A stretch of DNA of 64,000 nt, taken from Psychrosphaera saromensis (GTDB lineage Bacteria; Pseudomonadota; Gammaproteobacteria; Enterobacterales; Alteromonadaceae). The stretch covers positions 3,077,991 through 3,141,990 of the forward strand of contig NZ_MSCH01000003.1 of the NCBI RefSeq assembly GCF_002954545.1, written 5' to 3'. Positions 917-17,914 of the stretch are shown piece after piece (positions within the stretch are counted from its first letter, which is position 1; every line of letters starts with the position of its first letter). The notes beneath the pieces were generated by a model that had not been told where the DNA came from, made no database searches, and saw nothing but the letters and a program-made list of their open reading frames with translations. Position numbers and translations under genes: made by a program.

Positions 917-3646
917 CTACCGTATTTTTGATGTAAATCTAAAAGGATTTTGTTTTTTCCAAAATGGCTGCCAATGATCCAAATAACCTGTAACGATAAC
1001 GCCACTTTTTGTTGAGTTCTGGTCTGTCTGGGTAAAGACAACTTCTAGCATTCCTTGGGTATTTGTTGAGTACTGAGTTAGTTGTGGCAACCCCCTCTGT
1101 GGTGATTTACCTTTCGTATATTGAGCATTCAATAAATCAAAACGGTCAATCACCTCAGTTGTTGGAAAACCAAATCGATTATTTACTCCTGCACTATGAA
1201 ATACAATCTCTGGCGACACTGCATTTATAAACGCCTGAGCAGATGAATATTTACTGCCATGGTGGGCGGAGATAATAACGTCAGACTCTAGGTCTATTTT
1301 TGCTTTATTGTGCATAGCTAATAACCTACGTTCAATTTTACTGGTTATATCGCCGGTTAATAACACCCTACTATTGGTGAGTTTGTCGGTAATTTTTATC
1401 ACGCAACTGCTGTCGTTTTTAGATAACTCGTTTTTATTTTTATTTTTATTTTTATTTTTAGTCGTTTGTTTTGAAAAGGAATGATTAAGCCTTGGCTGCT
1501 CAGGCCATAACATGGTTATTTCTGTGTTAAACCACGTTAAGGTTTGAGGTTTACAACTTTGCTTTCTTGTTGCTATCCAACTTGTATCTCCCAATACATT
1601 AATATCACCTGTATGGTCGCTATCATTATGGGAAACAACAATATGCGCTACATCGGTAATACCTAAACCAATTAACATAGGTTTTACCACAGCTTGGGTG
1701 GCGTTAAATCCCGATGGATATACCGGCCCTAAATCATAAATAAATGCAGAACTGCCCTGCTTAAATAATACCGACGTGCCTTGCCCTACATCGAGTACAT
1801 ACATAGTTAACTTAGGTTTAAACTGAGTAATTAATGATGAATGCCACGGATAAAAACTTAATCCCACAGGTAAAACTAGCAAAACGCTTAATACTACTTT
1901 GCTAGCGCGACTTCGATTCAGTACATACACAGGCAATATCAACACAATACAGATAATTAATAACCACCATGACCAAACACCAAAGGCAAAATCAATCCAG
2001 TAATGAAATACAGAGTAACGGCTAAACATATTAAGTAATGGGCTAAGCACCGCATCCGCAAATACAAATAAATAGTGTAACCAGCTAATGTCGAGCAAAG
2101 CTCCTACCGTCCCGACAAAAATACTCGGCACTAATATAAAACTGAAGATAGGAATGGCGATTAGGTTGGTTAATACGCTAGATACTGAAACGCCACCAAA
2201 CCAGAACAGCACAACAGGCATCATCCAAACAGTAATAAACACCTGAAACTTAAGCAGATAAATAAATCTATTTGTTACATTCCTAAATATCGGAAAAAGC
2301 TTATTTTGCCATAACTGCCATTTAAGTGAATCTTCAGGGTTAGACTCTTGCTCTTGTTTGTCGCTGCTGGTAAATAGCGCCTTGATAGATTCCCTTTCTA
2401 CAGAAAAATTTTTTATAGACAGCTCTTTGATAGACAGCCCAGTTGAAGACTCCACTTTAACAAAAGGGACTTTCTGGATAAATATAACGATGCCCAATAC
2501 CGCAGAAAAGGTTAACCACCAAGCTGCCGTTAAGGGTGAGAAAGGATCAATTAACAGGCTAAAAAACGCGACTAACAATAACAATTTGATCTTATTAATA
2601 TTACTAAAGGTTAAGTCCAACAGCGCCCATAATGAAACAAACAACCCCGCTCTTGTTGCCGACACAGGAAAGCTAATTAAGCCGATATACGACCATAATA
2701 AAATTAGCGTAAACATGGTTAAATATTTATGATTTAGATGAAGCCGCGTTAACGTCAGCCAGCCTTTTGCCACTAATTTTAATAACCACTTTATCACTAG
2801 AAAAATAATACCTATATGCAGTCCCGATATTGCTAATAAGTGGCTAATGCCCATGTGATTATACAACTCAAACTGTTCATTGGTGATTAAACTGCGATTG
2901 CCTAAACCAACCGCTAACATAACGCCCTGGCTGTTTATTCCTTGAGTTGCTTCGATTAATTTATTAACTGAGCCTTGCTGCAGTAGATTTTGTTGTAGAA
3001 ATTTAAATTCTAATGGTTGTTGCTTTGAAGGATTTAGCTGTGTCGGATTTAGCTCTTTTAAAGATGAATGCGAATGAATTTTTTTAATACTGCCAGTCGC
3101 AATAAAGCCTTTTGAGAAAACCCATTGATTGTAGTCAAAACCAAATCTATTTTGATAACCATGCGGCTTAGTTAATTTGATGGTCGCGGTAAGTAGATCG
3201 CCTTGTTGTAGTAACAGCTTAGGTTTAAACCAACTAACTCTAAGTAAAGTTGGAAACCAAGACGACTTTACCGGCTCCCCATTTATGGTTGCTACTTTTA
3301 TAGTGAACATTAACGATGGATTATTTTGCTTTTTAACCACCACCGAACTCACTTGTCCTTGTACATCAAATGTTTGAGCCTGTGCCGTGACAAAGTTGTT
3401 ATTAAAATGGAAATTAGACATGGCCATTAAATAAATTACACCTGCCATAAAGCCGCTTATTATTGTTAAATAACCAAAGCTTTTGTGGTGTTTAAATCTA
3501 AACGACAAACTGTTTTTAGTGCTAGCTATGGTGGTAACAACCAAAAAAAAGCAGAAGATAATGACGAGTATATTTAACGGCAATAGCACAGGTGAAAATA
3601 AGGCCGCGATGTCACCGACCAAAAAAGCGAATATCCACCGTTCCAT
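917..3646 (-). CDS. comEC: ComEC/Rec2 family DNA internalization protein
   Basis: Inner-membrane channel for uptake of single-stranded DNA in natural transformation. The 909 residues show the family order: N-terminal membrane helices with a DUF4131 segment, the central Competence domain (around residues 230-600, containing GISHLLAISGLHIG), and a C-terminal metallo-beta-lactamase-like domain with DVGQGTSVLF and the metal motif SHNDSDHTGD. An AGGGGGC ribosome site lies just before ATG 3646. The C-terminal domain carries a low-complexity Lys-Asn run encoded by a hexanucleotide microsatellite (1431-1460). It is transcribed with msbA and is divergent from the DUF2062 gene. No other competence genes are in view, so transformability is not shown. 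Confidence 0.93.
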   Translation of the reverse strand: MERWIFAFLVGDIAALFSPVLLPLNILVIIFCFFLVVTTIASTKNSLSFRFKHHKSFGYLTIISGFMAGVIYLMAMSNFHFNNNFVTAQAQTFDVQGQVSSVVVKKQNNPSLMFTIKVATINGEPVKSSWFPTLLRVSWFKPKLLLQQGDLLTATIKLTKPHGYQNRFGFDYNQWVFSKGFIATGSIKKIHSHSSLKELNPTQLNPSKQQPLEFKFLQQNLLQQGSVNKLIEATQGINSQGVMLAVGLGNRSLITNEQFELYNHMGISHLLAISGLHIGIIFLVIKWLLKLVAKGWLTLTRLHLNHKYLTMFTLILLWSYIGLISFPVSATRAGLFVSLWALLDLTFSNINKIKLLLLVAFFSLLIDPFSPLTAAWWLTFSAVLGIVIFIQKVPFVKVESSTGLSIKELSIKNFSVERESIKALFTSSDKQEQESNPEDSLKWQLWQNKLFPIFRNVTNRFIYLLKFQVFITVWMMPVVLFWFGGVSVSSVLTNLIAIPIFSFILVPSIFVGTVGALLDISWLHYLFVFADAVLSPLLNMFSRYSVFHYWIDFAFGVWSWWLLIICIVLILPVYVLNRSRASKVVLSVLLVLPVGLSFYPWHSSLITQFKPKLTMYVLDVGQGTSVLFKQGSSAFIYDLGPVYPSGFNATQAVVKPMLIGLGITDVAHIVVSHNDSDHTGDINVLGDTSWIATRKQSCKPQTLTWFNTEITMLWPEQPRLNHSFSKQTTKNKNKNKNKNELSKNDSSCVIKITDKLTNSRVLLTGDITSKIERRLLAMHNKAKIDLESDVIISAHHGSKYSSAQAFINAVSPEIVFHSAGVNNRFGFPTTEVIDRFDLLNAQYTKGKSPQRGLPQLTQYSTNTQGMLEVVFTQTDQNSTKSGVIVTGYLDHWQPFWKKQNPFRFTSKIR
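1431..1460. repeat. Hexanucleotide microsatellite (TTTTTA)x5 inside comEC
   Basis: Five perfect TTTTTA units on the plus strand encode alternating Asn and Lys in ComEC. The unit is 6 bp, so gain or loss of units keeps the frame and changes only the length of a polar loop in the beta-lactamase-like domain. Confidence 0.9.
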
Positions 3647-4447: not shown

Positions 4448-5482
4448 ATGACACAGATTACAATTACAACACCAGATGACTGGCACTTACATTTTCGCGA
4501 TGGCGACATGCTTAACGAAACCGTACCGGCAACAGCTCGTTGTTTTCAACGTGCCGTCGCTATGCCTAACTTAGTACCTCCTGTTACGACTGCCGACATG
4601 GTGTCTGAATATAAACAACGTATTTTAGCGGCTCGACCTAAAGACAGTACGTTTGAACCGGTTATGACATTATTCTTAACCAACAATACCAGCTGCCAAG
4701 ATATTATTGATGCCAAAGCAGCAGGAGCATTAGCCGCAAAGCTTTATCCTGCTGGAGCAACAACCAACTCAGACGCAGCCGTAAGTGCTTTAGATGGAAT
4801 GTTTCCTGTTTTTGAAGAGATGCAAAAGCAAGGCATGTTGTTGTTAATACATGGCGAAATGACAGCACATCATATTGATATATTTGACCGTGAAAAAGAA
4901 TTCATTGATCAAAACATGACTCGTATTGTTAGTGCATTCCCACACTTAAAAGTCGTGTTTGAACACATCACCACAAAAGAAGCGGTCGAGTTTGTACTAG
5001 CCGCAGGCGACAATGTTGCTGCGACTATTACGCCTCAGCATTTGTTATTAAACCGTAACGACTTATTAGTTGGTGGTGTACGTCCTCATTATTATTGCTT
5101 ACCTGTATTAAAACGTAATATTCATCAGCAAGCATTACGTTCCGTAGTCGCAACTGGTAGTAAGAAGTTTTTCCTAGGTACTGATTCCGCCCCACACGAG
5201 AAAGACAAAAAAGAAAATGCCTGCGGCTGTGCTGGTTGTTACAGCGCTTGGAGTGCAATTGAATTGTATACGCAAGTGTTCGATGAATTAGGTGCGCTAG
5301 ATAAGCTAGAAGGCTTTGCATCACATAACGGTGCAGACTTTTATGGCTTACCACGCAATTCAACAAGCATTACTTTAGTAAAAGAAGACTGGGTTATTCC
5401 AGCTGAAGTCACCTTACCAAACGGCAATCCAATTGTGCCATTTTTTGGCGGTGAAACTTGTGCTTGGAAAATAAAAGACTAG
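4448..5482 (+). CDS. pyrC: Dihydroorotase
   Basis: Zinc amidohydrolase that interconverts N-carbamoyl-aspartate and dihydroorotate, the third step of pyrimidine synthesis. The 344 residues match the length of the E. coli type II enzyme. The metal motif HLHFRDGD is at residues 13-20, the carboxylated lysine is K98 in [11 protein letters not shown], later metal ligands lie in HGE and EHITT, and the catalytic Asp is in GTDSAPH. The gene is intact and ends in WKIKD. A 3'-terminal fragment of a second pyrC lies at 12873-13017. Another pyrimidine gene, pyrD, lies about 29 kb away, so the genes are dispersed. Confidence 0.97.
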
Positions 5483-5536
5483 TTCTTCTTGTTCTTAATG
5501 CATTTAGTGTTTACGTAATGTCCCGTCCTAAAATAC

Positions 5537-5571
5537 AAAAAAGCCGAGGTGTTAATCACCTCGGCTTTTTT
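5537..5571. terminator. Bidirectional Rho-independent terminator between pyrC and BspA copy A
   Basis: Perfect stem of 15 bp, AAAAAAGCCGAGGTG with loop TTAAT, flanked by A and T runs so that it works in both directions. It ends convergent pyrC (plus) and copy A (minus). It is the likely parent of the copies after each of the other four BspA genes. Confidence 0.9.
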
Positions 5572-5621
5572 ATTTTTTACGCCAATTAATGTTAAATCTA
5601 ATTAACTAAAAACCAGAGTTA

Positions 5622-7310
5622 TTAAGGCTGCAATCCATCGTCATTAATTGTCCAATTATAAGTATCTATAATTGATTGACGAGCGGCTTGACTTGAACTG
5701 CTATACGTTGCACTTACATCAAAAATTAAATCAGGTTGTAGTATTTGTATACTCCACCCGTTTAACAATGCATCGTAATTATCTGTAGATAATCCAGAAG
5801 AGTTAAGCATATTTATCATAGTTGTAACATTTGACACATCCCAACTATCTAACGGTTGGTTAAATGCAGTAGTACCTGAAAACATAGATTCCATATCAGT
5901 CACATTTGACACATCCCAACTATCTAATGGTTGATTAAATGCAGCTAAACGATGAAACATAATTGACATATTGGTTACCCTTGAAACATCCCAACTGTCT
6001 AATGGTTGATTAAACACTCCCGCTCCTGCAAACATTCCGGACATATCTGTTACATTCGATACATCCCAACTATCTAATGGCTGATTAAATGCAGCAGTAC
6101 CGCCGAACATCCATGACATATCTGTCACATTAGATACATCCCAACTATCTATAGGTTGATTAAACGATTCAGCGAGTTGAAACATAAAACTCATATTTGT
6201 CACATTAGATGCATCCCAACTATCTATAGGTTGATTAAATTCAGCAGCAACATAAAACATTCCGGACATATCGGTTACATTAGACACATCCCAGCTGTTT
6301 AATGGTTGATTAAATACAGCAGCATTGAAGAACATCCATACCATATTTGTCACATTAGATACATCCCAACCATCTATAGGTTGATTAAATGCAGCAGCAC
6401 CATAAAACATAACTGACATATCCGTTACATTCGATACATCCCAATGACTGATATCAGTATTGAAACTACTCGCCCCATAAAACATTGCATACATACTTTC
6501 GACATCAGATAACACAGGTGCATCAGTAGCGTTTATTACTAAGTTATGAGCTCCCCTAAACATATAACGCATGCTACTCCACCGAATATTCCCCCACTGC
6601 TCAACAGACATTAACTTGTCAACACTACTATTTTCATCATTATACATATGAGGAAATATCCCAGTAATAGAAACCGTATAAGTACCAGCTGTGCTATAAA
6701 TATGGGTTACAGAATCAGTTTGATTCTCATCAATTTGACTACCATCCCCCCAATCAATTGAGAAGTCATAGTAAGTATTAAAAGAATAGATAGGGATTCT
6801 AATACTTTGATTGGACTCCGTAGTTGTCCATGTAGTAATAAATGGAATAGGAGCAAAAACATTAACTGTTCTTGTTGCAACAGTTTCATTGCCTTCACTA
6901 TCAATTAAGGAGAAGGTTACCGTGTGCTCACCTAATATTGATGTGTCAATATTACGGCTATCTCCATCTGTGAAAACATAGAAGTCCCCCCCTTCATCAT
7001 AAACCATAGCTCCAGCATCAATGTAGTCAAAACCTTGAGGCCAATCAACGATAAGAGCACCATTAACAGTAATAACGTAACCTACAGCATTCCCAGCCTC
7101 TACTTCCTCTACTACATCTTCGCTGGACCTATCATCGCTGCTACACCCAGCTAAAATAAAAACAGTGGATATAATCAAAGCACTACGTTTGATTAGATCT
7201 AACATTTGAAAATTTATTTTAGAAAATGATAAAACATTTGAGGATGAGTTTAGATTTGTGGATAGAGCTGAGTTTATTGGTATTAATCTATTTCTGAGGC
7301 GGCTTAACAT
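5622..7310 (-). CDS. BspA family (DUF285) repeat lipoprotein, copy A
   Basis: Predicted surface lipoprotein of 562 residues. It has a long N-terminal region of about 35 residues before the hydrophobic core, lipobox LAGC with Ser at +2 (outer-membrane sorting in gammaproteobacteria), a DUF5011-like Ig domain, and a PKD-like domain around FSIDWGDGS and AGTYTVSITG. Nine 25-residue BspA/DUF285 repeats of the form FNQPLDSWDVSNVTDM follow, and then a C-terminal cap ending in NWTINDDGLQP. AAGGA lies 5 nt before ATG 7310, which favours this start over one 21 bases upstream and over the internal ATG at 7205 next to the signal core. The ligand is unknown; in other bacteria such repeats occur in adhesins. 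First of five tandem paralogs. Confidence 0.85.
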   Translation of the reverse strand: MLSRLRNRLIPINSALSTNLNSSSNVLSFSKINFQMLDLIKRSALIISTVFILAGCSSDDRSSEDVVEEVEAGNAVGYVITVNGALIVDWPQGFDYIDAGAMVYDEGGDFYVFTDGDSRNIDTSILGEHTVTFSLIDSEGNETVATRTVNVFAPIPFITTWTTTESNQSIRIPIYSFNTYYDFSIDWGDGSQIDENQTDSVTHIYSTAGTYTVSITGIFPHMYNDENSSVDKLMSVEQWGNIRWSSMRYMFRGAHNLVINATDAPVLSDVESMYAMFYGASSFNTDISHWDVSNVTDMSVMFYGAAAFNQPIDGWDVSNVTNMVWMFFNAAVFNQPLNSWDVSNVTDMSGMFYVAAEFNQPIDSWDASNVTNMSFMFQLAESFNQPIDSWDVSNVTDMSWMFGGTAAFNQPLDSWDVSNVTDMSGMFAGAGVFNQPLDSWDVSRVTNMSIMFHRLAAFNQPLDSWDVSNVTDMESMFSGTTAFNQPLDSWDVSNVTTMINMLNSSGLSTDNYDALLNGWSIQILQPDLIFDVSATYSSSSQAARQSIIDTYNWTINDDGLQP

Positions 7311-7648
7311 AACGTTCCTTATTATAAGCATTTAAATATCTAAATTAATTCTAACAATTACTTTCCATCAAGGTTAGTTTTTATTTGTAAAGGTTTTGAT
7401 TTGCTATAAGCATTTTTATCAGGCTGAACTATAAAACATATAAATAGACAGATTAAGATAAATTTACGTGTTCTGATTCTTCAAGTTATTGTATTCAATG
7501 ATGTGAGCTGCAATCGTTATTAAAATACTTATACGTTACTGACTGTATTAGAAATCCCACACCAGTGCATTAATTTAATACACCTTTAATTCAAAAAAAA
7601 CGCCAACGATCTGAATATAACGTTAAGAACTTTGTTACCCAGTAAAAT
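7158..7648. repeat. Segmental duplication block, A-side copy (5' of copy A plus upstream spacer)
   Basis: This 491-bp block, covering the first 50 or so codons of copy A and the spacer upstream to the terminator of copy B, is nearly identical to 9682-10182. The only large difference I see is a 10-bp tandem duplication (TTTATTTGTA type) in the other copy near 9906-9920. The identity stops abruptly inside the signal peptide codons. In the spacer I find no ORF, only AT-rich sequence that probably holds the promoter. Confidence 0.9.
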
Positions 7649-7650
7649 AC

Positions 7651-7685
7651 AAAAAAGCCGAGGTACTAATCACCTCGGCTTTTTT
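7651..7685. terminator. Terminator copy after BspA copy B
   Basis: AAAAAAGCCGAGGT stem with loop from ACTAATC, a variant of the pyrC/copy A hairpin. It lies about 50 bp beyond the stop of copy B on the minus strand. Confidence 0.85.
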
Positions 7686-7735
7686 GTGAGTAATACTTAG
7701 AGCACTTTTAAAGTGTATTTAATGTATTAGCTAAT

Positions 7736-9834
7736 TTACTCAACTGTAATTTCACGTGTTGCCGTTGATGTATTTCCAGCTGAGTCTGATGCAGTGTACG
7801 TTAACGTATAGACACCTAATACACTTGTATTTACAGAGCCTGATGTTGTAACCGCTACAGCGCCATCTCTGTCGTCTACAGCATAAGCATAAAGTTTTAA
7901 ATCACTGTATTGAGAGACTGTCGTTATACCTTCATCCCACATAGTAATTGAAGGGCCTGTACTATCAGCTGTTTCGGGTAATTCCCCATTATCAAGGATA
8001 TACCAATTATAATTATCCATGATGTATTGATGGGCTGCTGCACTTTCACTGTTATAATAAGCACCAATATAAAATGTAATACTTGGCTGTAATGTTCTCA
8101 AACTCCAGCCGTCCAATAACTGTGAATAACTCTCCGTCGATAACCCAACTGCACTTAACATATTACTCATATCAGTCACATTAGAAATATCCCAATCACC
8201 TAATAACTGATTAAACCCCAAAGCACTACTAAACATTCCTTGCATATTGGTGACATTAGAGACATTCCAACTATTTAATGGCTGATTAAACACAGGAGCA
8301 TAAAAAAACATTGCATTCATATCAATTACACTAGATACATCCCAATTATTTAAAGGTTGATTAAAAGAAACAGCTCCTGAAAACATCTTCTTCATATCCC
8401 TCACATTAGAAACATCCCAATTATTTAAAGGTTGGTTAAATGCATCTGAACCACTAAACATAGACGACATATCGGTCACATTAGAGACATCCCAGTTATC
8501 TAATGGTTGATTAAATTTTCAGCGGAAAAGAACATACTCGTCATATCCGTCACATTGGAGACATCCCAATTATCTAATGGTTGATTAAATTTTTCAGCTA
8601 AAAAGAACATGCTCGTCATATCCGTTACATTGGACACATCCCAACTGCTAATATCAGCATTAAAACTACTGGCATTTGAAAACATCCCCCCCATATCCGT
8701 TACATTGGACACATCCCAACTGCTAATATCAACATTAAAACTACTGGCATTTGAAAACATCCGCCCCATATCAGTTACATTGGACACATCCCAACTGCTA
8801 ATATCAGCATTAAAACTACTGGCATATGAAAACATATAACTCATATCAGTTACATTGGACACATCCCAACTGCTAATATCAGCATTAAAACTACTGGCAT
8901 CTGAAAACATATAACTCATATCAGTTACATTGGACACATCCCAACTGCTAATATCAGCATTAAAACTACTGGCATTTGAAAACATTGAACGCATATTACT
9001 TACGTTAAACAATATAGGAGTATCCGTTGCGTTTACGACTAAATTGGTTGCACCATAAAATGAAAGCTCCATATTCTCCCAGTGAGTATTTCCCCATTGT
9101 TCCACTGAAGTCAACTTGACATTATTTTCTCTATCAGTACCGTATGAGCTTGAATACAAATAAAGGAATCGCCCTAAAATAGTAACTGTATAAGTTCCAG
9201 CTACATCATAAATATGAGAACTATCACCTGTTACATTAATTTCAACCTCGCCACCATCCCCCCAATCAATTGAGTATTTATAACCAGAACCATTGGTTCT
9301 AATTTTAATCTCTTCATTTTCTGAGGTTGTTGTCCATGTAGTAATAAATGGTGTAGATGCCACCACGTTAACCGTTCTTTTAGTGATAGTTTCATTATCT
9401 TCAAGATCGACTGCGGAATAAGTAACGGTGTAAGAACCTACTGTCGACACATCAATATCATTTGTTTGAATGAGGGGGGTTACACCATCTATATCATCAT
9501 AGGCGTCAGCACCAAAATCCTCGTAGTCAAAATCTTGAGTCCAATTAATTTCATTTTCACCGACTAAAGTAATAACTGGCCCAATACCGTCGTTTGTTTC
9601 AGTTTCAACAACTACCACATCTGGTATTACCTCAACAATATCCTCACTCAATTCCTCGTCACTACCGCAGGCAGTTAAAACAAAAACAGTGGATATAATC
9701 AAAGCACTACGTTTGATTAGATCTAACATTTGAAAATTTATTTTAGAAAATGATAAAACATTTGAGGATGAGTTTAGATTTGTGGATAGAGCTGAGTTTA
9801 TTGGTATTAATCTATTTCTGAGGCGGCTTAACAT
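7736..9834 (-). pseudogene. BspA family repeat lipoprotein, copy B, with a one-base frameshift
   Basis: Two adjacent reading frames (9834 to about 8516, and about 8516 to 7736) form one gene of about 699 residues. Near 8516-8519 the coding strand has four A in the GAAAATTT context, where the neighbouring repeat unit (8590-8594) has five. Restoring one A rejoins AEKFNQPLDNWDVSNV in frame. Order: lipobox LTAC, Ig-like domain, PKD-like domain, five near-identical repeats of the FNADISSWDVSNVTDM subtype, about six FNQPL-type repeats, the cap, and, unlike its siblings, an extra C-terminal Ig-like domain ending TREITVE. AAGGA precedes ATG 9834. It could be a true pseudogene, a homopolymer sequencing error or a phase-variable gene. 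Confidence 0.8.
8641..9000. repeat. Five near-identical 75-bp units in copy B
   Basis: Units of 75 bp encoding ASSFNADISSWDVSNVTDM differ at only a few bases, mainly in the two variable codons after DM. This indicates recent unequal crossing-over or slippage. Confidence 0.85.
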
Positions 9835-10182
9835 AACGTTCCTTATTATAAGCATTTAAATATCTAAATTAATTCTAACAATTACTTTCCATCAAGGTTA
9901 GTTTTTATTTGTATTTATTTGTAAAGGTTTTGATTTGCTATAAGCATTTTTATCAGGCTGAACTATAAAACATATAAATAGACAGATTAAGATAAATTTA
10001 CGTGTTCTGATTCTTCAAGTTATTGTATTCAATGATGTGAGCTGCAATCGTTATTAAAATACTTATACGTTACTGACTGTATTAGAAATCCCACACCAGT
10101 GCATTAATTTAATACACCTTTAATTCAAAAAAAACGCCAACGATCTGAATATAACGTTAAGAACTTTGTTACCCAGTAAAAT
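9682..10182. repeat. Segmental duplication block, B-side copy (5' of copy B plus upstream spacer)
   Basis: The 501-bp partner of 7158-7648, longer by a 10-bp tandem repeat in the spacer. It includes the 5' codons of copy B and the region up to the terminator of copy C. The part from 9835 onward is noncoding and presumably contains the copy B promoter; no other feature is visible. Confidence 0.9.
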
Positions 10183-10185
10183 CAC

Positions 10186-10217
10186 AAAAGCCGAAGTGTT
10201 AATCACCTCGGCTTTTT
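10186..10217. terminator. Terminator copy after BspA copy C
   Basis: GCCGAAGTG pairs with CACCTCGGC around loop TTAAT with one A-C mismatch, followed by a T run. A slightly decayed copy of the pyrC/copy A hairpin. Confidence 0.8.
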
Positions 10218-10268
10218 TATTATTTACGCCAATTAATGTTAAACCTAATTAACTAAAAACCAGAGTTA

Positions 10269-12719
10269 TTAAGGCTGCAATCCATCGTCATTAATTGTCC
10301 AATTATAAGTATCTATAATTGATTGACGAGCGGCTTCACTTGCACTGCTATACTTAGCACTTACATCAAAAATCAAATCAGGTTGTAAAATTTGTAAACT
10401 CCACCCATTTAATAATGCATCATAGTTTTCTGTAGATAATCCTGAAAGACTAAGCATAACGGCCATATTGGTTACATTTGACACATCCCAACTATCTAAT
10501 GGCTGGTTAAATGCAGTCGCACCAGAAAACATACTTCTCATATCCGTTGCACTAGATACATCCCAACTATCTAATGGCTGGTTAAATGCAGTTGCACCAG
10601 AAAACATCCTGCTCATATCTGTCACATTAGAAACATCCCAACTATCTAATGGCTGGTTAAATGCAGTTGCACCAGAAAACATAAACGTCATAGCTCCCAG
10701 ATTGTATTTACCAGATGATAAATTTGACACATCCCAACTATTCAACGGTTGGTTAAATGCAGTCGCGCCTAAAAACATAAAGGACATATCTATCACACTA
10801 GAAACATCCCAACTATCTAATGGCTGGTTAAATGCAGTCGCACGAAAAAACATACTTGTCATATCCGTTACACTAGATACATCCCAACTATCTAATGGCT
10901 GGTTAAATGCAGTTGCACCGTAAAAAATCCCGCTCATATCTGTCACATTAGAAACATCCCAACTATCTAATGGCTGGTTAAATACAGTTGCACCTTCAAA
11001 CATCCTGCTCATATCTGTCACATTAGAAACATCCCAACTATCTAATGGCTGATTAAATGCAATTGCACCGTAAAAAATCCCGCTCATATCTGTCACATTA
11101 GAAACATCCCAACTATCTAATGGCTGGTTAAATGCAGTTGTACCGTAAAACATATTCTCCATATCTGTCACATTAGAAACATCCCAACTATCTAATGGCT
11201 GGTTAAATGCAGTCGCGCCTTTAAACATCCAGCTCATATCTATCACATTAAAAACACCCCAACTATCTAATGGCTGGTTAAATGCAGTAGCACCAGAAAA
11301 CATACTTCTCATATTCGTTGCACTAGATACACCCCAACTATCTAATGGCTGGTTAAATGCAGTCGCACCAGAAAACATCCTCCACATACCTTTCACATTA
11401 GAAACATCCCAACTATCTAATGGCTGGTTAAATGCGGAGGCTCCTTCAAACATAGAGTGCATATATGTCACATTAGAAACATCCCAACTATCTAGTGGCT
11501 GATTAAATACAGTTGCACCTTCAAACATCCACCTCATATCTGTCACATTAGAAACATCCCAACTATCTAATGGCTGGTTAAATGCAGTTGTACCGTAAAA
11601 CATATTCTCCATATCTGTCACATTAGAAACATCCCAACTATCTAATGGCTGGTTAAATGCAGTTGCACCGTAAAACATATAACCCATATCTGTTACATTA
11701 GTTAACACTGGTGTATCTGTCGCATTTATGGTTAAATTATTTGCGCCATAAAAGGCTGCTTTCATACTACGCCATGGAGTATTCCCCCACTGCTCTACCG
11801 ACATTAAACGTTTACGATTTAGCTCTGCCGTAATTAAACATATATGATTTAGCTCTACCGGCACCGGCATTAAACATTTACGATTTAGCTTATCAGAACC
11901 TAAAAGATATAAATGCGGAAATGCCCCAGTAATAGAAACTGTGTATGTACCAGCGCTTGCATAAACATGAGTAGCATCGCCTGTTTGGTTTTCTTGTACA
12001 GCACTTCCATCACCCCAATCAACTAAATAGTTATATCCACTTTCAAATGTAGGGATTGTAATCGGCTCATTCGCCTCAGTGGTTTTCCATGTAGTAATGA
12101 AAGGCGTAGCTTCTAATATATCAACCTTTTGAGTTACAGATGATGCTTCATTACCTTCACTGTCTATGGCGCTATAGGTTACTGTATAACTACCTACGAC
12201 TGTGTTATCTATATCATTTGTCTGGGTAACCGTGACATCATCATCGTACTCATCATATACAGTAACCCCTAAATCTTCATAACTATAATATTGCAGCAGC
12301 TCAACAGATTTATCTCCCACCAAGGTAATGATTGGAGCCGTTGTATCAACGACCGTTACTTGACGTGTTTCAGTGATGGAGTTATCACTACTATCTGTTG
12401 CTGTGTAAATAATTAAATAAGAGCCTAATGAAAGGACATCGACGCTACCGTTTACTTCAACGGTTACACTACCATCAACATCATCTAACGCAGTTGCACC
12501 TAATTCCTCGAATAGGGAATTGTATTCTAAGGTTATTTCATCAGCACCATTAAGCGTAATAACTGGGGGAGTTGTATCTGCTGTGCTTTCTGTATCTGCG
12601 TCATCACCACACGCGGTTACAGATAGCAATAATGGGAGAATAAATAATGCCCGGAGAAGTGATTGTTTAATATTAAATTCAGCAAAAGGGTTTGCTAATA
12701 TTCTCTTTTTATTGTCCAT
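10269..12719 (-). CDS. BspA family repeat lipoprotein, copy C (largest, 16 repeats)
   Basis: Predicted lipoprotein of 816 residues. It has a long N-terminal region, lipobox SVTAC followed by Gly-Asp-Asp, two DUF5011-like Ig domains (each starting with a PVITLNG or PIITLVG type strand), a PKD-like domain, and then 16 repeats of FNQPLDSWDVSNVTDM type plus the cap ending NWTINDDGLQP. One repeat, near 10690-10740, carries a seven-residue insertion. The start is ATG 12719, with AGGAAG 11 nt upstream; GTG 12731 is too close to that site. An insertion of tandem 30-36 bp units sits just before the repeats. The 3' end is nearly the same as that of copy A. Confidence 0.85.
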   Translation of the reverse strand: MDNKKRILANPFAEFNIKQSLLRALFILPLLLSVTACGDDADTESTADTTPPVITLNGADEITLEYNSLFEELGATALDDVDGSVTVEVNGSVDVLSLGSYLIIYTATDSSDNSITETRQVTVVDTTAPIITLVGDKSVELLQYYSYEDLGVTVYDEYDDDVTVTQTNDIDNTVVGSYTVTYSAIDSEGNEASSVTQKVDILEATPFITTWKTTEANEPITIPTFESGYNYLVDWGDGSAVQENQTGDATHVYASAGTYTVSITGAFPHLYLLGSDKLNRKCLMPVPVELNHICLITAELNRKRLMSVEQWGNTPWRSMKAAFYGANNLTINATDTPVLTNVTDMGYMFYGATAFNQPLDSWDVSNVTDMENMFYGTTAFNQPLDSWDVSNVTDMRWMFEGATVFNQPLDSWDVSNVTYMHSMFEGASAFNQPLDSWDVSNVKGMWRMFSGATAFNQPLDSWGVSSATNMRSMFSGATAFNQPLDSWGVFNVIDMSWMFKGATAFNQPLDSWDVSNVTDMENMFYGTTAFNQPLDSWDVSNVTDMSGIFYGAIAFNQPLDSWDVSNVTDMSRMFEGATVFNQPLDSWDVSNVTDMSGIFYGATAFNQPLDSWDVSSVTDMTSMFFRATAFNQPLDSWDVSSVIDMSFMFLGATAFNQPLNSWDVSNLSSGKYNLGAMTFMFSGATAFNQPLDSWDVSNVTDMSRMFSGATAFNQPLDSWDVSSATDMRSMFSGATAFNQPLDSWDVSNVTNMAVMLSLSGLSTENYDALLNGWSLQILQPDLIFDVSAKYSSASEAARQSIIDTYNWTINDDGLQP
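10480..11690. repeat. 75-bp tandem repeat array, 16 units, in copy C
   Basis: Near-identical 75-bp units, each containing a plus-strand ACATCCCAACTATCTAATGG segment. There is also a higher-order repeat: the segment with GTACCGTAAAACATATTCTCC and its flanking units occurs twice (about 11100-11215 and 11570-11690). Variation is concentrated in the few codons around the Met-Phe boundary. Confidence 0.9.
11803..11890. repeat. Three imperfect tandem units inserted in copy C
   Basis: ATTAAAC...GATTTAGCT units start at 11803, 11833 and 11869 (periods 30 and 36 bp, both multiples of three). They add about 25 residues, including LNRK, LNHI and LNRK, between the PKD-like domain and SVEQWGN. The sibling genes lack this insertion. 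Confidence 0.85.
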
Positions 12720-12872
12720 AATAAATCTCACTTCCTGATGGTTTTATCATAATTTAACAAATTAATTTCAATTGATATTAGCATAATACTAATTCCAAAC
12801 AAATTAATATTATGGATTTTAACTTGCTGATTTAATGTAATTATAATGAATGTACACCCTAATAAGTTTGCT
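12720..12872. other. Spacer upstream of copy C
   Basis: AT-rich noncoding sequence between the start of copy C and the stranded pyrC fragment. It should contain the copy C promoter. I see no convincing -35/-10 pair and no ORF. Confidence 0.5.
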
Positions 12873-13017
12873 TTTATACGGCTTACCACGTAATACCAGC
12901 ACGATTACCTTAGTAAAAGAAGATTGGGTTATTCCAGCTGAAATCACCTTACCAAACGGCAATCCAATTGTGCCATTTTTTGGCGGTGAAACTTGTGCTT
13001 GGAAAATAAAAGACTAG
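12873..13017 (+). pseudogene. Stranded 3'-terminal fragment of pyrC
   Basis: This reads as the last 45 or so codons of dihydroorotase, from the YGLPRN segment to [13 protein letters not shown] and the stop, followed by the same downstream DNA and hairpin as intact pyrC. The last 75 or so bases are identical to pyrC. The first 65 differ at about a dozen positions. These include synonymous changes (CGC to CGT, ACT to ACC, GAC to GAT), Ser/Thr swaps and one Val to Ile, which looks like divergence under protein-level selection. It has no start and no 5' portion, so it is a relic of duplication or of recombination with a foreign pyrC allele. Confidence 0.92.
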
Positions 13018-13071
13018 TTCTTCTTGTTCTTAATGCATTTAGTGTTTACGTAATGTCCCGTCCTAAAATAC

Positions 13072-13106
13072 AAAAAAGCCGAGGTGCTAATCACCTCGGC
13101 TTTTTT
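13072..13106. terminator. Terminator copy between the pyrC fragment and BspA copy D
   Basis: AAAAAAGCCGAGGTG stem with loop CTAAT and A/T runs on both sides. It sits in the same relation to the pyrC fragment and copy D as the hairpin at 5537 does to pyrC and copy A. Confidence 0.9.
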
Positions 13107-13155
13107 ATTTTTACGCCAATTAATGTTAAATCTAATTAACTAAAAACCAGAGTTA

Positions 13156-14997
13156 TTAAGGCTGCAATCCATTATCTTCAAACGTCCAATTATAACTATC
13201 TTTAATTGATTGACGAGCGGCCTCGCCTTTATCGCTATAATAAACGGATGTAGTTAAAAATACCCCACTTTGCAAAACTAGCTGACTCCATGCAATTAAC
13301 ATATCGTCGTAATTATCAGTGCTTAACGCTGACCCATGTAGCATATTTTTCATATCCTTTACATTAGATACATCCCATGCATTTAATGCTTGATTAAAAG
13401 CATCTGCATTAAAAAACATCCTTGACATAGTTGTGACATTAGAAACATCCCAATTATCTAACGGTTGATTAAAAGCATCTGTATAGCTAAACATAAACGA
13501 TATATCTGTTACATTAGATACATCCCATGCATTTAATGGTTGATTGAAAGCCTCTGCAAATGAAAGCATATTTGACATATTTGTAACTTTAGAAACATCC
13601 CAATTATTTAATGGCTGATTAAACTCACTTGCATAAGAAAACATATCACTCATATTGGTTACATTTGAAACATCCCAAGTATCTAAAGGCTGGTTAAACT
13701 CAGTTGCGCCATAAAACATATTCTTCATATCTGTTACATTAGATACGTTCCAATTCTCTAACGGTTGATTAAAATGAATTGCTCGAGAAAACATATCACT
13801 CATATTGGTTACATTTGAAACATCCCAGTTATTTAAATCTTGATTAAATACTGTTTGTAATAAAAATGAGCTAGTGCCAAACATTAGATACATATTTGTT
13901 ACACTGGATACATCCCAACTATCTAATGGTTGGTTAAATGCGGAGGCTCCTTCAAACATCCACTTCATATCGGTCACATTAGATACATCCCAAGTATTTA
14001 AAGGCTGGTTAAACTCAGTTGCTTTAGAAAACATAAACGACATATTTGTAACTTTAGATACATCCCAATTATCTAACGGCTGATTAAACTCAGCTGCATT
14101 AGAAAACATATAACTCATATCTGTTACATTGGATACATCCCAATGACTAATATCACTATTAAAGCCCTTAGCATAACTAAACATAAGGCTCAGACTTTCA
14201 ACATTATACAACACTGGAGCATCTGTCGCATTTATGACTAAATTCTCAGTACCTTGGAACATTGACTCCATCTTGTCCCACTTTATGTTCCCCCACTGTT
14301 CAACTGATGTTAATTTATCCATATCAGAATCAACACCTTCGAAAAGAATGGTGTTTGGCATGTACGAGAATATTCCAGCAATAGAAATTGTATAAGTACC
14401 GGCTTCGGCATAAATATGAGTAACATTACTTTCTTGATTAACCTCCATTGCACTACCATCTCCCCAATCAATTGAGAAGTCGTAATCATAATAGTCATGC
14501 TCATCTGTAGGGATTGTAATACTTTGATTGGCCTCCGTAGTTGTCCATGTAGTAATAAATGGTATTGGGGTATATATATTAACCGTTCTTGTTGCAACGC
14601 TTTCATTGTTTTCACTGTCACTTATAGTGTAAGTAACTGTTTGAGTACCAACAACTGATACATCAATATCAGTCCCATTCAGGAGATAAAACTGATCATC
14701 AGCTTCATCGTAAGAGCTAGCTCCTGAATCTCTGTAAATAGCACCTTGCGGCCAATCGACTTCAAGTTCACCATTTACAGTAATAACAGGACCTATTCCA
14801 TCCCCAACCTCTACTTCTACTTCTTCGTTAGAGCTATCATCGCTGCTACACCCAGCTAAAATAAAGACGGTGAATATAATAAAAACACTACTTTTGATTA
14901 GGTCTAACATTTGAATATTTGCTTTAGCAAATAATGACCAATTTGAGGATGAGTTTAGATTTGTAGGTAGTGATGTATTTCTGAGTATATTAAACAT
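13156..14997 (-). CDS. BspA family repeat lipoprotein, copy D
   Basis: Predicted lipoprotein of 613 residues related to A and B at the N-terminus (NLNSSSN, MLDLIK, lipobox LAGC with Ser at +2). One Ig-like domain and a PKD-like domain (FSIDWGDGS) precede about 11 repeats of more varied sequence than in copy C. One repeat has a five-residue insertion (GTSSFLLQTVFNQ). The cap ends FEDNGLQP. AAGGA lies before ATG 14997, matching copies A and B. Its 3' flank, including the hairpin and pyrC fragment, is nearly identical to the pyrC-copy A junction. Confidence 0.85.
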   Translation of the reverse strand: MFNILRNTSLPTNLNSSSNWSLFAKANIQMLDLIKSSVFIIFTVFILAGCSSDDSSNEEVEVEVGDGIGPVITVNGELEVDWPQGAIYRDSGASSYDEADDQFYLLNGTDIDVSVVGTQTVTYTISDSENNESVATRTVNIYTPIPFITTWTTTEANQSITIPTDEHDYYDYDFSIDWGDGSAMEVNQESNVTHIYAEAGTYTISIAGIFSYMPNTILFEGVDSDMDKLTSVEQWGNIKWDKMESMFQGTENLVINATDAPVLYNVESLSLMFSYAKGFNSDISHWDVSNVTDMSYMFSNAAEFNQPLDNWDVSKVTNMSFMFSKATEFNQPLNTWDVSNVTDMKWMFEGASAFNQPLDSWDVSSVTNMYLMFGTSSFLLQTVFNQDLNNWDVSNVTNMSDMFSRAIHFNQPLENWNVSNVTDMKNMFYGATEFNQPLDTWDVSNVTNMSDMFSYASEFNQPLNNWDVSKVTNMSNMLSFAEAFNQPLNAWDVSNVTDISFMFSYTDAFNQPLDNWDVSNVTTMSRMFFNADAFNQALNAWDVSNVKDMKNMLHGSALSTDNYDDMLIAWSQLVLQSGVFLTTSVYYSDKGEAARQSIKDSYNWTFEDNGLQP

Positions 14998-15250
14998 AAC
15001 GTTCCTTATTATAAGCATACAAATATCCATTTAATTTAACGATTACTTTACAACAGATTTTGAGTGCGATTAGCGATTAAGAGTTATTTTACTCCTCAAC
15101 AATAACATATATAAAATAGAGAGATAATATAAAATCATGCATTTTATTACGTAACTCACTCATTTAATTATATTAATATAATACGATGTCTATACTGGTA
15201 ATAAAGGTCTGCTACTTAAGTTTTAAATAAAAAAGTCATCCAATTAAATC
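14998..15250. other. Spacer between copies D and E
   Basis: AT-rich noncoding DNA upstream of copy D. It is not similar to the duplicated A/B spacer beyond the shared ATAAGGAACGTT ribosome site. No ORF; a promoter for D is expected but not clear. Confidence 0.5.
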
Positions 15251-15283
15251 AAAAAAGCCGAGGTGTTAATCACCTCGGTTTTA
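15251..15283. terminator. Terminator copy after BspA copy E
   Basis: AAAAAAGCCGAGGTG, loop TTAAT, CACCTCGG and a short T-rich tail. The fifth copy of the pyrC-type hairpin, with a weakened tail. Confidence 0.85.
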
Positions 15284-15326
15284 TTTTGTTACAGCTTGAT
15301 ATGTGATCAATTGAAAGTCAGAGTTG

Positions 15327-16967
15327 TTAAGGTTGTAATCCACCATCATTAATTTCCCAATTATATGTATCTATAATTGATTGACGAGCGGCTTCACTGG
15401 CACTGCTGTAGTAAATACCATCAGCTCCAAATTCTACTTTTGTTTGTAAAATTTGTGCACTCCAAGCATTTAATAATGCATCATAGTAGTATGTAGATAA
15501 CTCTGAATTACTGAACATATTACCCATATCCTTTACGTTAGACACATCCCAATCCCCCAAAGAGCTACCAAATGCAGTAGCACCTGAAAACATAGATGAC
15601 ATATCCATTACATTTGATACATCCCAACGATTTAATTCCTGAGAAAATATAGTAGCTCCAGCAAACATAGATGACATATCCGTTACATTTGATACATCCC
15701 AATTATTTAACCATTCATTGAACGCGCTAGCACCACTAAACATACTTGACATATCTGTCACTCTTGATACATCCCAATCATGTATTGGTTGATTGAACGC
15801 GCTAGCACCACTAAACATACTTGACATATCTGTCACTGTTGATAAATCCCAGTCATTTAATGGTTGATTGAACGTGGTAGCACCACTAAACATACTTGAC
15901 ATATCTGTCACTGTTGATACATCCCAGCCATTTAATGGATGGTCAAATGCAACAGCGCCTTCAAACATATGACTCATATCCTCCACATAAATTAACACCG
16001 GAATATCTGTCGCATTTATGACTAAATTTATAGCGGACTTAAACATATACGCCATGCTACGCCACTGAATATTCCCCCATTGTTCAACCGATGTTAATTT
16101 ATCAATATCATCGTTATTTAAATTATTCATATGAGGGAATATTCCAATAATAGAAACCGTATAGGTGCCTGCTTCGTCATAGATATGGGTTACAGAATCA
16201 GTTTTATTCTCATCAACTTCACTACCATCCCCCCAATCAATTGAAAATTTATAATTATAACTTCCGGTAGGAATCGTAATTTCCTCATTTGGGCTAGTGG
16301 TTGTCCACGTAGTAACAAATGGAGTAGGAACAAGTACATTAACGTTTCTAGTTGCCAACCTCTCATTACCACTACTGTCTATTGCTTTGTACGTTACGGT
16401 GTAACTACCAATTACAGAGGTATCTATGTCATTAGTTTGAGTAACAATGACGTCACCATCATATTTATCATATGCAGTAGCTCCCAAATCCGTGTAGCTA
16501 TTATTGGGAAGTAAATCAATTGTGTCATTACCAATTAAAGTAATTTTAGGGGCGGTTGTATCGACAACCATAATCGGGCATTCCACAACTGTAGAGTTAC
16601 CACTGTAATCTGTTGTTGTATAGGTAATTATATATGTGCCCAAGGTAAGAGTATCTACACTTCCCTCTACCACAACGGTTAAAAGATCATCTTCAAGGTC
16701 AACAGCACCAGCTTTCGGTAGAGTATAATTCTTTGTATTATACTCTACTGTAATATAATCTACTGTAATATAATCTACTGTAATTCTACAACCGCCATTG
16801 ATGATAATTACTGGGGGGTTTGTATCTGATTTTTCATCACTGCACGCCGTAATTAAAAATAATATTGCCAGAGTTGAAAGTGCTCTAATAATTGATTTTT
16901 TAAAGCTAAACTCAGTTACAAACGTTGTTAACGTTTGATATTTATTATTTATACTCTTTTTATTCAT
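15327..16967 (-). CDS. BspA family repeat lipoprotein, copy E (shortest, 6 repeats)
   Basis: Predicted lipoprotein of 546 residues. The N-terminus resembles copy C: FSFKKSIIRAL, then lipobox LITAC with Ser at +2. Two Ig-like domains follow, the first expanded by an ITVDY triplication, then a PKD-like domain and six divergent DUF285 repeats (FNQPLNDWDLSTVTDMSS type). The cap ends NWEINDGGLQP. AAAGGG lies about 8 nt before ATG 16967. The greater repeat divergence suggests it is one of the older copies. Outermost gene of the array, next to the hemolysin-III gene. Confidence 0.85.
   Translation of the reverse strand: MNKKSINNKYQTLTTFVTEFSFKKSIIRALSTLAILFLITACSDEKSDTNPPVIIINGGCRITVDYITVDYITVEYNTKNYTLPKAGAVDLEDDLLTVVVEGSVDTLTLGTYIITYTTTDYSGNSTVVECPIMVVDTTAPKITLIGNDTIDLLPNNSYTDLGATAYDKYDGDVIVTQTNDIDTSVIGSYTVTYKAIDSSGNERLATRNVNVLVPTPFVTTWTTTSPNEEITIPTGSYNYKFSIDWGDGSEVDENKTDSVTHIYDEAGTYTVSIIGIFPHMNNLNNDDIDKLTSVEQWGNIQWRSMAYMFKSAINLVINATDIPVLIYVEDMSHMFEGAVAFDHPLNGWDVSTVTDMSSMFSGATTFNQPLNDWDLSTVTDMSSMFSGASAFNQPIHDWDVSRVTDMSSMFSGASAFNEWLNNWDVSNVTDMSSMFAGATIFSQELNRWDVSNVMDMSSMFSGATAFGSSLGDWDVSNVKDMGNMFSNSELSTYYYDALLNAWSAQILQTKVEFGADGIYYSSASEAARQSIIDTYNWEINDGGLQP
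16741..16790. repeat. 15-bp tandem repeat in copy E
   Basis: About three units of ATCTACTGTAATATA encode ITVDY, ITVDY and ITVEY in the first Ig-like domain. Copy C has a single ITLEY at this place. Confidence 0.85.
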
Positions 16968-17209
16968 TAGATATCCCTTTCTTGATGCGCTTATAATAAT
17001 GAAAGATTTATAGTAACATTAACTACTTTAATAAATTAAAACCTTAGCATAAGACAACAACCTCACCAATAGATTTTTTAAATTCCTCTTTGTTTTTATG
17101 GAGTTAAGTAGATTCAACCAATATAGATTAAGCTATAAAAACTTTTATTCCGATTAAAACTAATCTAATTACTATAATTCTTTCTTATGTAATAAACACC
17201 TGTTATCAT

Positions 17210-17231
17210 TCAGCGAACACGTGTACGCTGA
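17210..17231. promoter_or_regulatory. Near-perfect 22-bp palindrome upstream of the hemolysin-III family gene
   Basis: TCAGCG and CGCTGA arms enclose a central ACACGTGT palindrome with a single A-A mismatch pair. The element abuts the AAAAGG ribosome site of the gene starting at 17246, so it could be a repressor operator or an RNA hairpin controlling translation. Function is inferred from position only. Confidence 0.45.
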
Positions 17232-17245
17232 AAAGGTATTTATCT

Positions 17246-17914
17246 ATGAATGATCAAGATATAAACGATTCAAACATCCCGAACCCTAATGCTAGTTATT
17301 CAATTAATGAAGAAATAGCTAACTCTGTTAGCCATGGCATTGGGGCGTTATTAAGTGTAGCTGGATTAACCTTATTATTGGTATCCGCCAGTGCAATTGA
17401 AAACACAGCGTTATTATTTAGCTATATTGTTTATGGCCTTAGTTTAATGAGCTTGTTTCTAGCTTCTACGCTTTATCATGCCTTTAGCCAACCGCAAATT
17501 AAAAAGCTATTTAAGCTATTTGATCATTGCGCTATTTATCTATTAATTGCAGGAACCTATACCCCTTTGATGGCAGTAACGCTAGGCGGTACATTAGGCT
17601 TTACTATGCTAGCGATTATTTGGGCATTAGCATTATTGGGTATTGGCTTTAAAATGAAGTTTGGTTCTCAATATAAAATAATATCCCTTGGCACTTATTT
17701 AGGGATGGGCTTTATTGCGTTATTTTTTGTTCCAACCTTATATGACGCATTATCTCATAACGGTTTTCTGTTCTTGGCATTTGGTGGGTTAAGTTACGCT
17801 TCTGGTGTGTATTTTTACGTGAATAAAAAAATACCGTTTAATCATGCTATTTGGCACCTATTTGTTTTAGGTGGCGCTATCAGTCATTTCTTTATGATTT
17901 ACTTTTACGCGTAA
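17246..17914 (+). CDS. Hemolysin III / PAQR family membrane protein
   Basis: A 222-residue seven-helix membrane protein of the HlyIII/YqfA family. It shows EEIANSVSHGIGALLSVAG near the N-terminus, FDHCAIYLLIAGTYTPL in the middle and HLFVLGGAISHF near the C-terminus, with the conserved His/Asp residues of the PAQR metal site. The family is linked to membrane energetics in E. coli (TrhA/YqfA); the hemolysin name is historical. AAAAGG lies 9 nt before the ATG. It is divergent from the BspA array, with a palindrome just upstream. Confidence 0.88.
   Translation: MNDQDINDSNIPNPNASYSINEEIANSVSHGIGALLSVAGLTLLLVSASAIENTALLFSYIVYGLSLMSLFLASTLYHAFSQPQIKKLFKLFDHCAIYLLIAGTYTPLMAVTLGGTLGFTMLAIIWALALLGIGFKMKFGSQYKIISLGTYLGMGFIALFFVPTLYDALSHNGFLFLAFGGLSYASGVYFYVNKKIPFNHAIWHLFVLGGAISHFFMIYFYA

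Follow-up and report, generated by a model that had tools for sequence, protein, structure and literature searches.

A stranded pyrC 3′ end within a BspA gene array of Psychrosphaera saromensis, a probable seam of homologous recombination

Some integrative islands restore the 3′ end of the gene they target, and Campbell-type (insertion-duplication) integration proceeds by one crossover. Many hotspots of variable gene content are without mobile elements and show recombination at the flanking core genes, and recombination at core genes that flank variable loci is an established mechanism (2017, PMC5635113). Here, we report the analysis of a locus between pyrC and hlyIII in the marine bacterium Psychrosphaera saromensis, in which a 3′ fragment of pyrC lies stranded within an array of genes for BspA-like surface proteins. 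As far as the published account of such hotspots goes, the locus resembles them in having variable genes between two conserved genes, no visible integrase and a recombination signal in a core gene; it differs in that a 3′ fragment of the core gene stands inside the array and a block is bounded by its direct repeats, and in being one locus in one genus. Like an integrative island, it presents an intact gene, cargo and a displaced 3′ end, but no recombinase was seen in its interval and the patches of identity overlap only partly between the two genomes that carry them. Like a product of Campbell-type integration, it has direct repeats of a homologous segment at both ends, with an allele break; unlike in that process, no circular donor is known here, and a linear double exchange explains the arrangement equally well. 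We find that the relic is best read as the seam of ordinary homologous recombination at the pyrC 3′ end (probability about 0.64). The mechanism is a known one and the instance, this locus and its scars, is new: the literature searched holds neither, and a search for pyrC with Psychrosphaera returned nothing, which is no proof of absence from print.

The stranded pyrC end and the BspA array

The window is the whole stretch of 64,000 nucleotides that was analysed, and coordinates below refer to it unless another locus is named. Its genome (G000) was compared within a set of eight Psychrosphaera genomes, G000 included; two of the others, G006 and G003, recur below. The features of the locus are as follows.

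4448-5482, + strand: intact pyrC (dihydroorotase, 344 amino acids; Amidohydro_1 domain), with 78-92% identity to pyrC in the seven other Psychrosphaera genomes
5375-5638, + strand: near-identical patch, copy 1 (pyrC codons 310-344, spacer, terminator and 3′ end of BspA copy A)
5519-5535, + strand: 17-base tip identical to one IS end, in the pyrC-terminator spacer (second copy at 13054-13070)
5622-7331, - strand: BspA-like (DUF285) copy A, tail to tail with pyrC (Pfam)
7736-9855, - strand: BspA-like copy B, in two open frames, 7736-8479 and 8500-9855 (Pfam)
10269-12731, - strand: BspA-like copy C, the 5′ half of which is the counterpart of the single BspA gene of G006
12873-13017, + strand: stranded pyrC 3′ end, the relic (codons 300-344 at 12880-13014, stop to 13017; codons 300-309 of a diverged allele)
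12910-13172, + strand: near-identical patch, copy 2 (relic codons 310-344, spacer, terminator hairpin at 13078-13100 and 3′ end of copy D)
13156-15030, - strand: BspA-like copy D (Pfam)
15327-16967, - strand: BspA-like copy E (Pfam)
17173-17914, + strand: hlyIII and its leader, which bound the variable interval on the right; alignment with G006 begins at 17173, and hlyIII itself is at 17246

The relic lies inside the array, between copies C and D. In a blastn comparison of 12701-13400 with the window, 12871-13221 matches 5338-5687 over 353 columns at 94% identity (E 6e-153). The relic reproduces pyrC codons 300-344 in frame, with the same TAG stop as the intact gene and 125/135 bases identical; stops are abundant upstream of it in the same frame, it has no evident start and a product is probably absent. 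As had been read from the sequence alone, the repeat continues past the gene fragment through the spacer, the terminator and a BspA 3′ end, as at the real pyrC junction, and we confirm this correspondence (12880-13172 against 5345-5638). The repeat ends 17 bases into the frame of copy D, after which copies A and D diverge. The intact and stranded ends are direct repeats 7535 bases apart on one chromosome, and a search of the same genome at E ≤ 0.001 gave no third pyrC match.

DUF285 repeats and Ig-like domains (PF03382 and PF16403) were found in all six of the six BspA frames scanned. These six are the BspA-domain members among the window ORFs of at least 120 amino acids between pyrC and hlyIII; the sole other is an unscanned 151-aa frame inside copy C. 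Judged by their coordinates, the two frames of copy B are in different reading frames. A nearly identical bidirectional terminator closes every BspA unit (5529-5579, 7642-7687, 10177-10225, 13064-13113 and 15246-15286), and the pre-terminator stretches of A-B and B-C are close copies; such shared joints may let the units recombine. Further BspA-like genes are found in G000 at C6:167315-168904, 181672-185781 and 1731185-1733101, and in G006 at C6:128321-161649, with frames of 1244 to 1519 amino acids. The window also encodes a Competence-family (ComEC-like) protein at 917-3646, which is no proof of natural transformability of the host.

The 17 bases in the spacer, TGTCCCGTCCTAAAATA, are identical to one end of an IS that, elsewhere, carries an rve-domain transposase. 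This tip is present at the intact pyrC ends of G000 and G006 and in the relic; G006 has no second copy, and G003 has none. Other positions of the tip in G000 are C6:3153715 (- strand) and 3509064 (+ strand), and the IS lies at 222-1520 of L193. In G000 the tip directly precedes terminator hairpins of different sequence, and in all three loci viewed (L193, L194 and L195) the IS begins shortly after a terminator-like T run; in G006 a matching inverted tip follows the terminator (L099, about 6163). The IS may favour terminators, because the tip or the IS adjoins them at the sites viewed. From an impression of the translations, the two other tip sites of G000 (L170 and L171) adjoin the 3′ end of a peptidase-like gene.

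Mosaic structure of the relic

Ungapped comparison of the two pyrC ends divides them into three segments. Over codons 300-309 (5345-5374) relic and intact pyrC differ at 8/30 positions; over the following patch (5375-5638 against 12910-13172) they differ at 3/263 positions plus a 1-base indel; and over 5639-5688 the two copies again differ at 9/50. The longest run with at most three mismatches is 264 bases, a length reached in 0/100000 shuffles of the 19 mismatches. The borders of the patch were picked after inspection, so Fisher values for it are optimistic, and the shuffle test depends less on them. The contrast between a diverged 5′ part and an identical 3′ part, the starting point of the sequence-only reading, therefore holds in these counts, 8/30 giving way to 3/263 and one indel. 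All ten coding substitutions in the relic fall within codons 303-321 and the next 70 coding bases carry none. Seven codons are changed, three synonymously and four conservatively (S/T, T/S, S/T and V/I), which agrees with the earlier description of the changes as mainly synonymous or conservative. A check by codon position yields 2/2/6 for first, second and third positions (P 0.077), a weak argument that is not significant alone.

A firmer indication comes from the bases themselves. Every one of the ten differing relic bases recurs in the pyrC gene of one or more of the seven other Psychrosphaera genomes, an outcome that random substitution gave in 1/200000 simulations, or in 5/200000 with transition bias; the 5′ piece therefore looks like a diverged functional allele, as had been proposed. 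Six of the ten occur in G006 or G003, and the remaining four (at 5364, 5367, 5368 and 5389) are absent from both and are found only in more distant relatives. We compared the 5′ piece by per-site distances, 30 bases being too few for a tree. Over codons 300-309 the closest pyrC among the seven is that of G006, with 4/30 differences from the relic, against 8/30 between the relic and its own pyrC; the latter also stands 4/30 from G006. From codon 310 onward the closest counterpart of the relic is its own pyrC, and the two share the bases at 5393, 5394 and 5404, found in none of the seven other functional genes. Together, the distances and the shared bases mark the relic as allele-like at its 5′ end and of its own lineage at its 3′ end. 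Its codons 300-309 occur in 0/7 of the other Psychrosphaera genomes; no donor strain was found among them, and G006, the nearest, differs at 4/30.

A comparable scar in a related genome

All eight Psychrosphaera genomes encode pyrC. The closest to that of the window (92%) belongs to the sister genome G006, an uncultured Psychrosphaera sp. (contig NZ_CANMSK010000013.1, locus L019), in which pyrC is followed by one BspA gene, a displaced pyrC 3′ end and hlyIII. In G003, hlyIII follows pyrC directly, roughly 0.2 kb on, without BspA genes. Gene content thus varies between the same two core genes, from five BspA units in G000 to one in G006 and none in G003, and a core gene carries a recombination signal, in the form of mosaic pyrC 3′ ends in G000 and G006. 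In the stretches examined of the other 5/8 genomes, hlyIII was not found near pyrC; in one of them, G005, the contig ends 7.8 kb after pyrC. A strain in which pyrC leads directly into copies D and E, which the sequence-only reading had proposed to look for, was met in 0/8 of these genomes.

The two pyrC ends of G006 share a core with 0/68 mismatches, flanked by segments with 7/24 and 8/75; an identical run as long arose in 399/100000 shuffles. Of the seven differences upstream of the core, six affect third codon positions; six have a base that occurs in at least one of seven other functional pyrC genes. The displaced end stops at TAA and is followed by another spacer; the intact end stops at TAG, followed by the G000 spacer. 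Between the third base of codon 322 and codon 344, the displaced end differs from G003 at 17 positions and the intact end at 13; the corresponding differences from G000 are 3 and 6. As the displaced end is no closer to G003, it is taken for the original one because of its position next to hlyIII and its distinct spacer.

The G006 BspA gene matches the 5′ half of copy C (813/860 aligned bases identical), and a C-type gene adjoins the relic in both genomes. The spacers between the C-type gene and the relic are not significantly alike in the two (88/200 shuffles reach the score); the comparison thus does not show that the scars share an origin. Between G000 and G006, identity is 85% over the first 900 bases of pyrC, 89% over the last 135 and 93% over hlyIII, and the two genomes have no difference over 96 bases spanning the stop, spacer and terminator (249/100000 shuffles). 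On sequence grounds this identity suggests exchange between lineages; constraint on the spacer and terminator could explain part of it. In G006, 114 bases (L099, 8833-8946) separate the displaced end from the hlyIII leader; nothing corresponding to them flanks hlyIII in G000.

We also searched 395 genomes of the family, drawn from a larger group, with the pyrC C-terminus and used the match counts per genome. A match was found in 384/395, 11 had none and four had two (G000, G006, G047 and G124), with scars only in G000 and G006. The two matches of G124 lie in open frames of 372 and 354 amino acids on different contigs, and the second match of G047 is weak (E 8e-4) and lies in a 232-aa frame; neither genome has a short fragment. 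Among 80 loci kept from 588 relatives, some with short flanks, a second pyrC piece was present only in that of G006.

Probable joining of two pyrC-hlyIII forms

The mosaic, the allele-like 5′ piece, the analogous scar of G006 and the BspA-free site of G003 are observed, and they fit best with ordinary homologous recombination at the pyrC 3′ end that joined two forms of the pyrC-hlyIII interval. One form would have resembled G006, with pyrC, a run of BspA genes of which C is the last, a displaced 3′ end of pyrC and hlyIII; the other would have had the order pyrC-D-E-hlyIII. DNA of one form, probably from a related Psychrosphaera cell, would have been taken up and have paired with the other along the 3′ end of pyrC, the spacer and the terminator, presumably with the help of RecA. 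Tandem joining would leave behind codons 300-309 of the diverged allele and the duplicated patch of about 264 bases, and two exchanges within one homologous segment would produce a patch with divergence on both sides. Against this reading stand the failure to find a donor genome or a pyrC-D-E strain among the genomes compared, the length of the donor-like segment, only 30 bases, and the four of ten relic bases found only in distant relatives.

The main rival, which we hold to be unlikely though serious, is conversion on the same chromosome: an old duplicate of the pyrC 3′ end would have been partly overwritten from the pyrC-A junction through gene conversion or an unequal crossover of sister chromosomes, with no foreign DNA at that step. 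The presence of both direct repeats on a single chromosome, at a distance of 7535 bases, the bases unique to its own pyrC in the 3′ part of the relic, a patch bounded on both sides and BspA units that are alike and joined at similar terminators all accord with it, and conversion between pyrC and an older relic would yield an identical mosaic. Yet codons 300-309 need a source outside the genome's own pyrC (8/30 to its own against 4/30 to G006), and every differing base occurs in relatives.

Site-specific integration, in which a recombinase would have inserted an element bearing its own pyrC 3′ end and displaced the old one, is improbable. The architecture of intact gene, cargo and displaced 3′ end fits it, most clearly in G006. 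At the looser G000 border (codon 310), moreover, the G000 and G006 patches have 38 bases in common (codons 310-322), which leaves a shared core conceivable; the strictly identical G000 run starts at 5409 and has only 4 bases in common with the G006 core. The genes scanned in the G000 interval include no recombinase, and beside the G006 BspA gene there remain gaps of at most about 250 bases. BspA genes are the only ones recognised in the interval in either genome, and Pfam placed none of 19 more window ORFs downstream of the array in an integrase or transposase family. Nor did plasmids or phages match a 501-base query, or viral contigs two exact patterns.

Simple tandem duplication of the genome's own pyrC 3′ end followed by random decay would account for the clear homology (125/135 bases over codons 300-344) and is very improbable, since the substitutions cluster within codons 303-321, the 70 coding bases after these are free of them, and all ten differing bases match functional relatives. 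An assembly artefact is extremely improbable: repeats are prone to misassembly, but the relic differs from the intact end, lies inside a 3.63 Mb contig and has an analogue in G006.

Under homologous recombination between two forms, which of the blocks A-C and D-E arrived last cannot be told, as the seam is symmetric and either order gives the same product. The proposal that recombination at pyrC could have inserted copies A-C is supported in its first part, by the mosaic and the G006 scar; for its second, the joining of D-E downstream of an existing C-relic form is an equal alternative. The 114 bases of G006 that lack a counterpart in G000 make the addition of D-E to a C-relic form fit slightly better, by inference. 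The sole likely effect of the relic itself is to provide a direct repeat for loss or amplification of A-C, with pyrC staying whole.

From two genomes, we tentatively suggest, as a rather doubtful extension, that the 3′ end of pyrC serves repeatedly for docking, where a repeat-bounded BspA block may move by homology alone, without a recombinase, into related pyrC loci and may be lost again, always leaving a working pyrC. If so, surface-protein genes would be gained and shed as recA-dependent cassettes, and the locus, should its repeats be active, would vary reversibly in how many surface proteins it encodes. The locus offers a base-level example of how an integrase-free hotspot may grow, in which core-gene fragments would mark the seams of separately arrived blocks, and its signature, the 3′ part of a core gene interrupted by an allele break, could be searched for in other hotspots.
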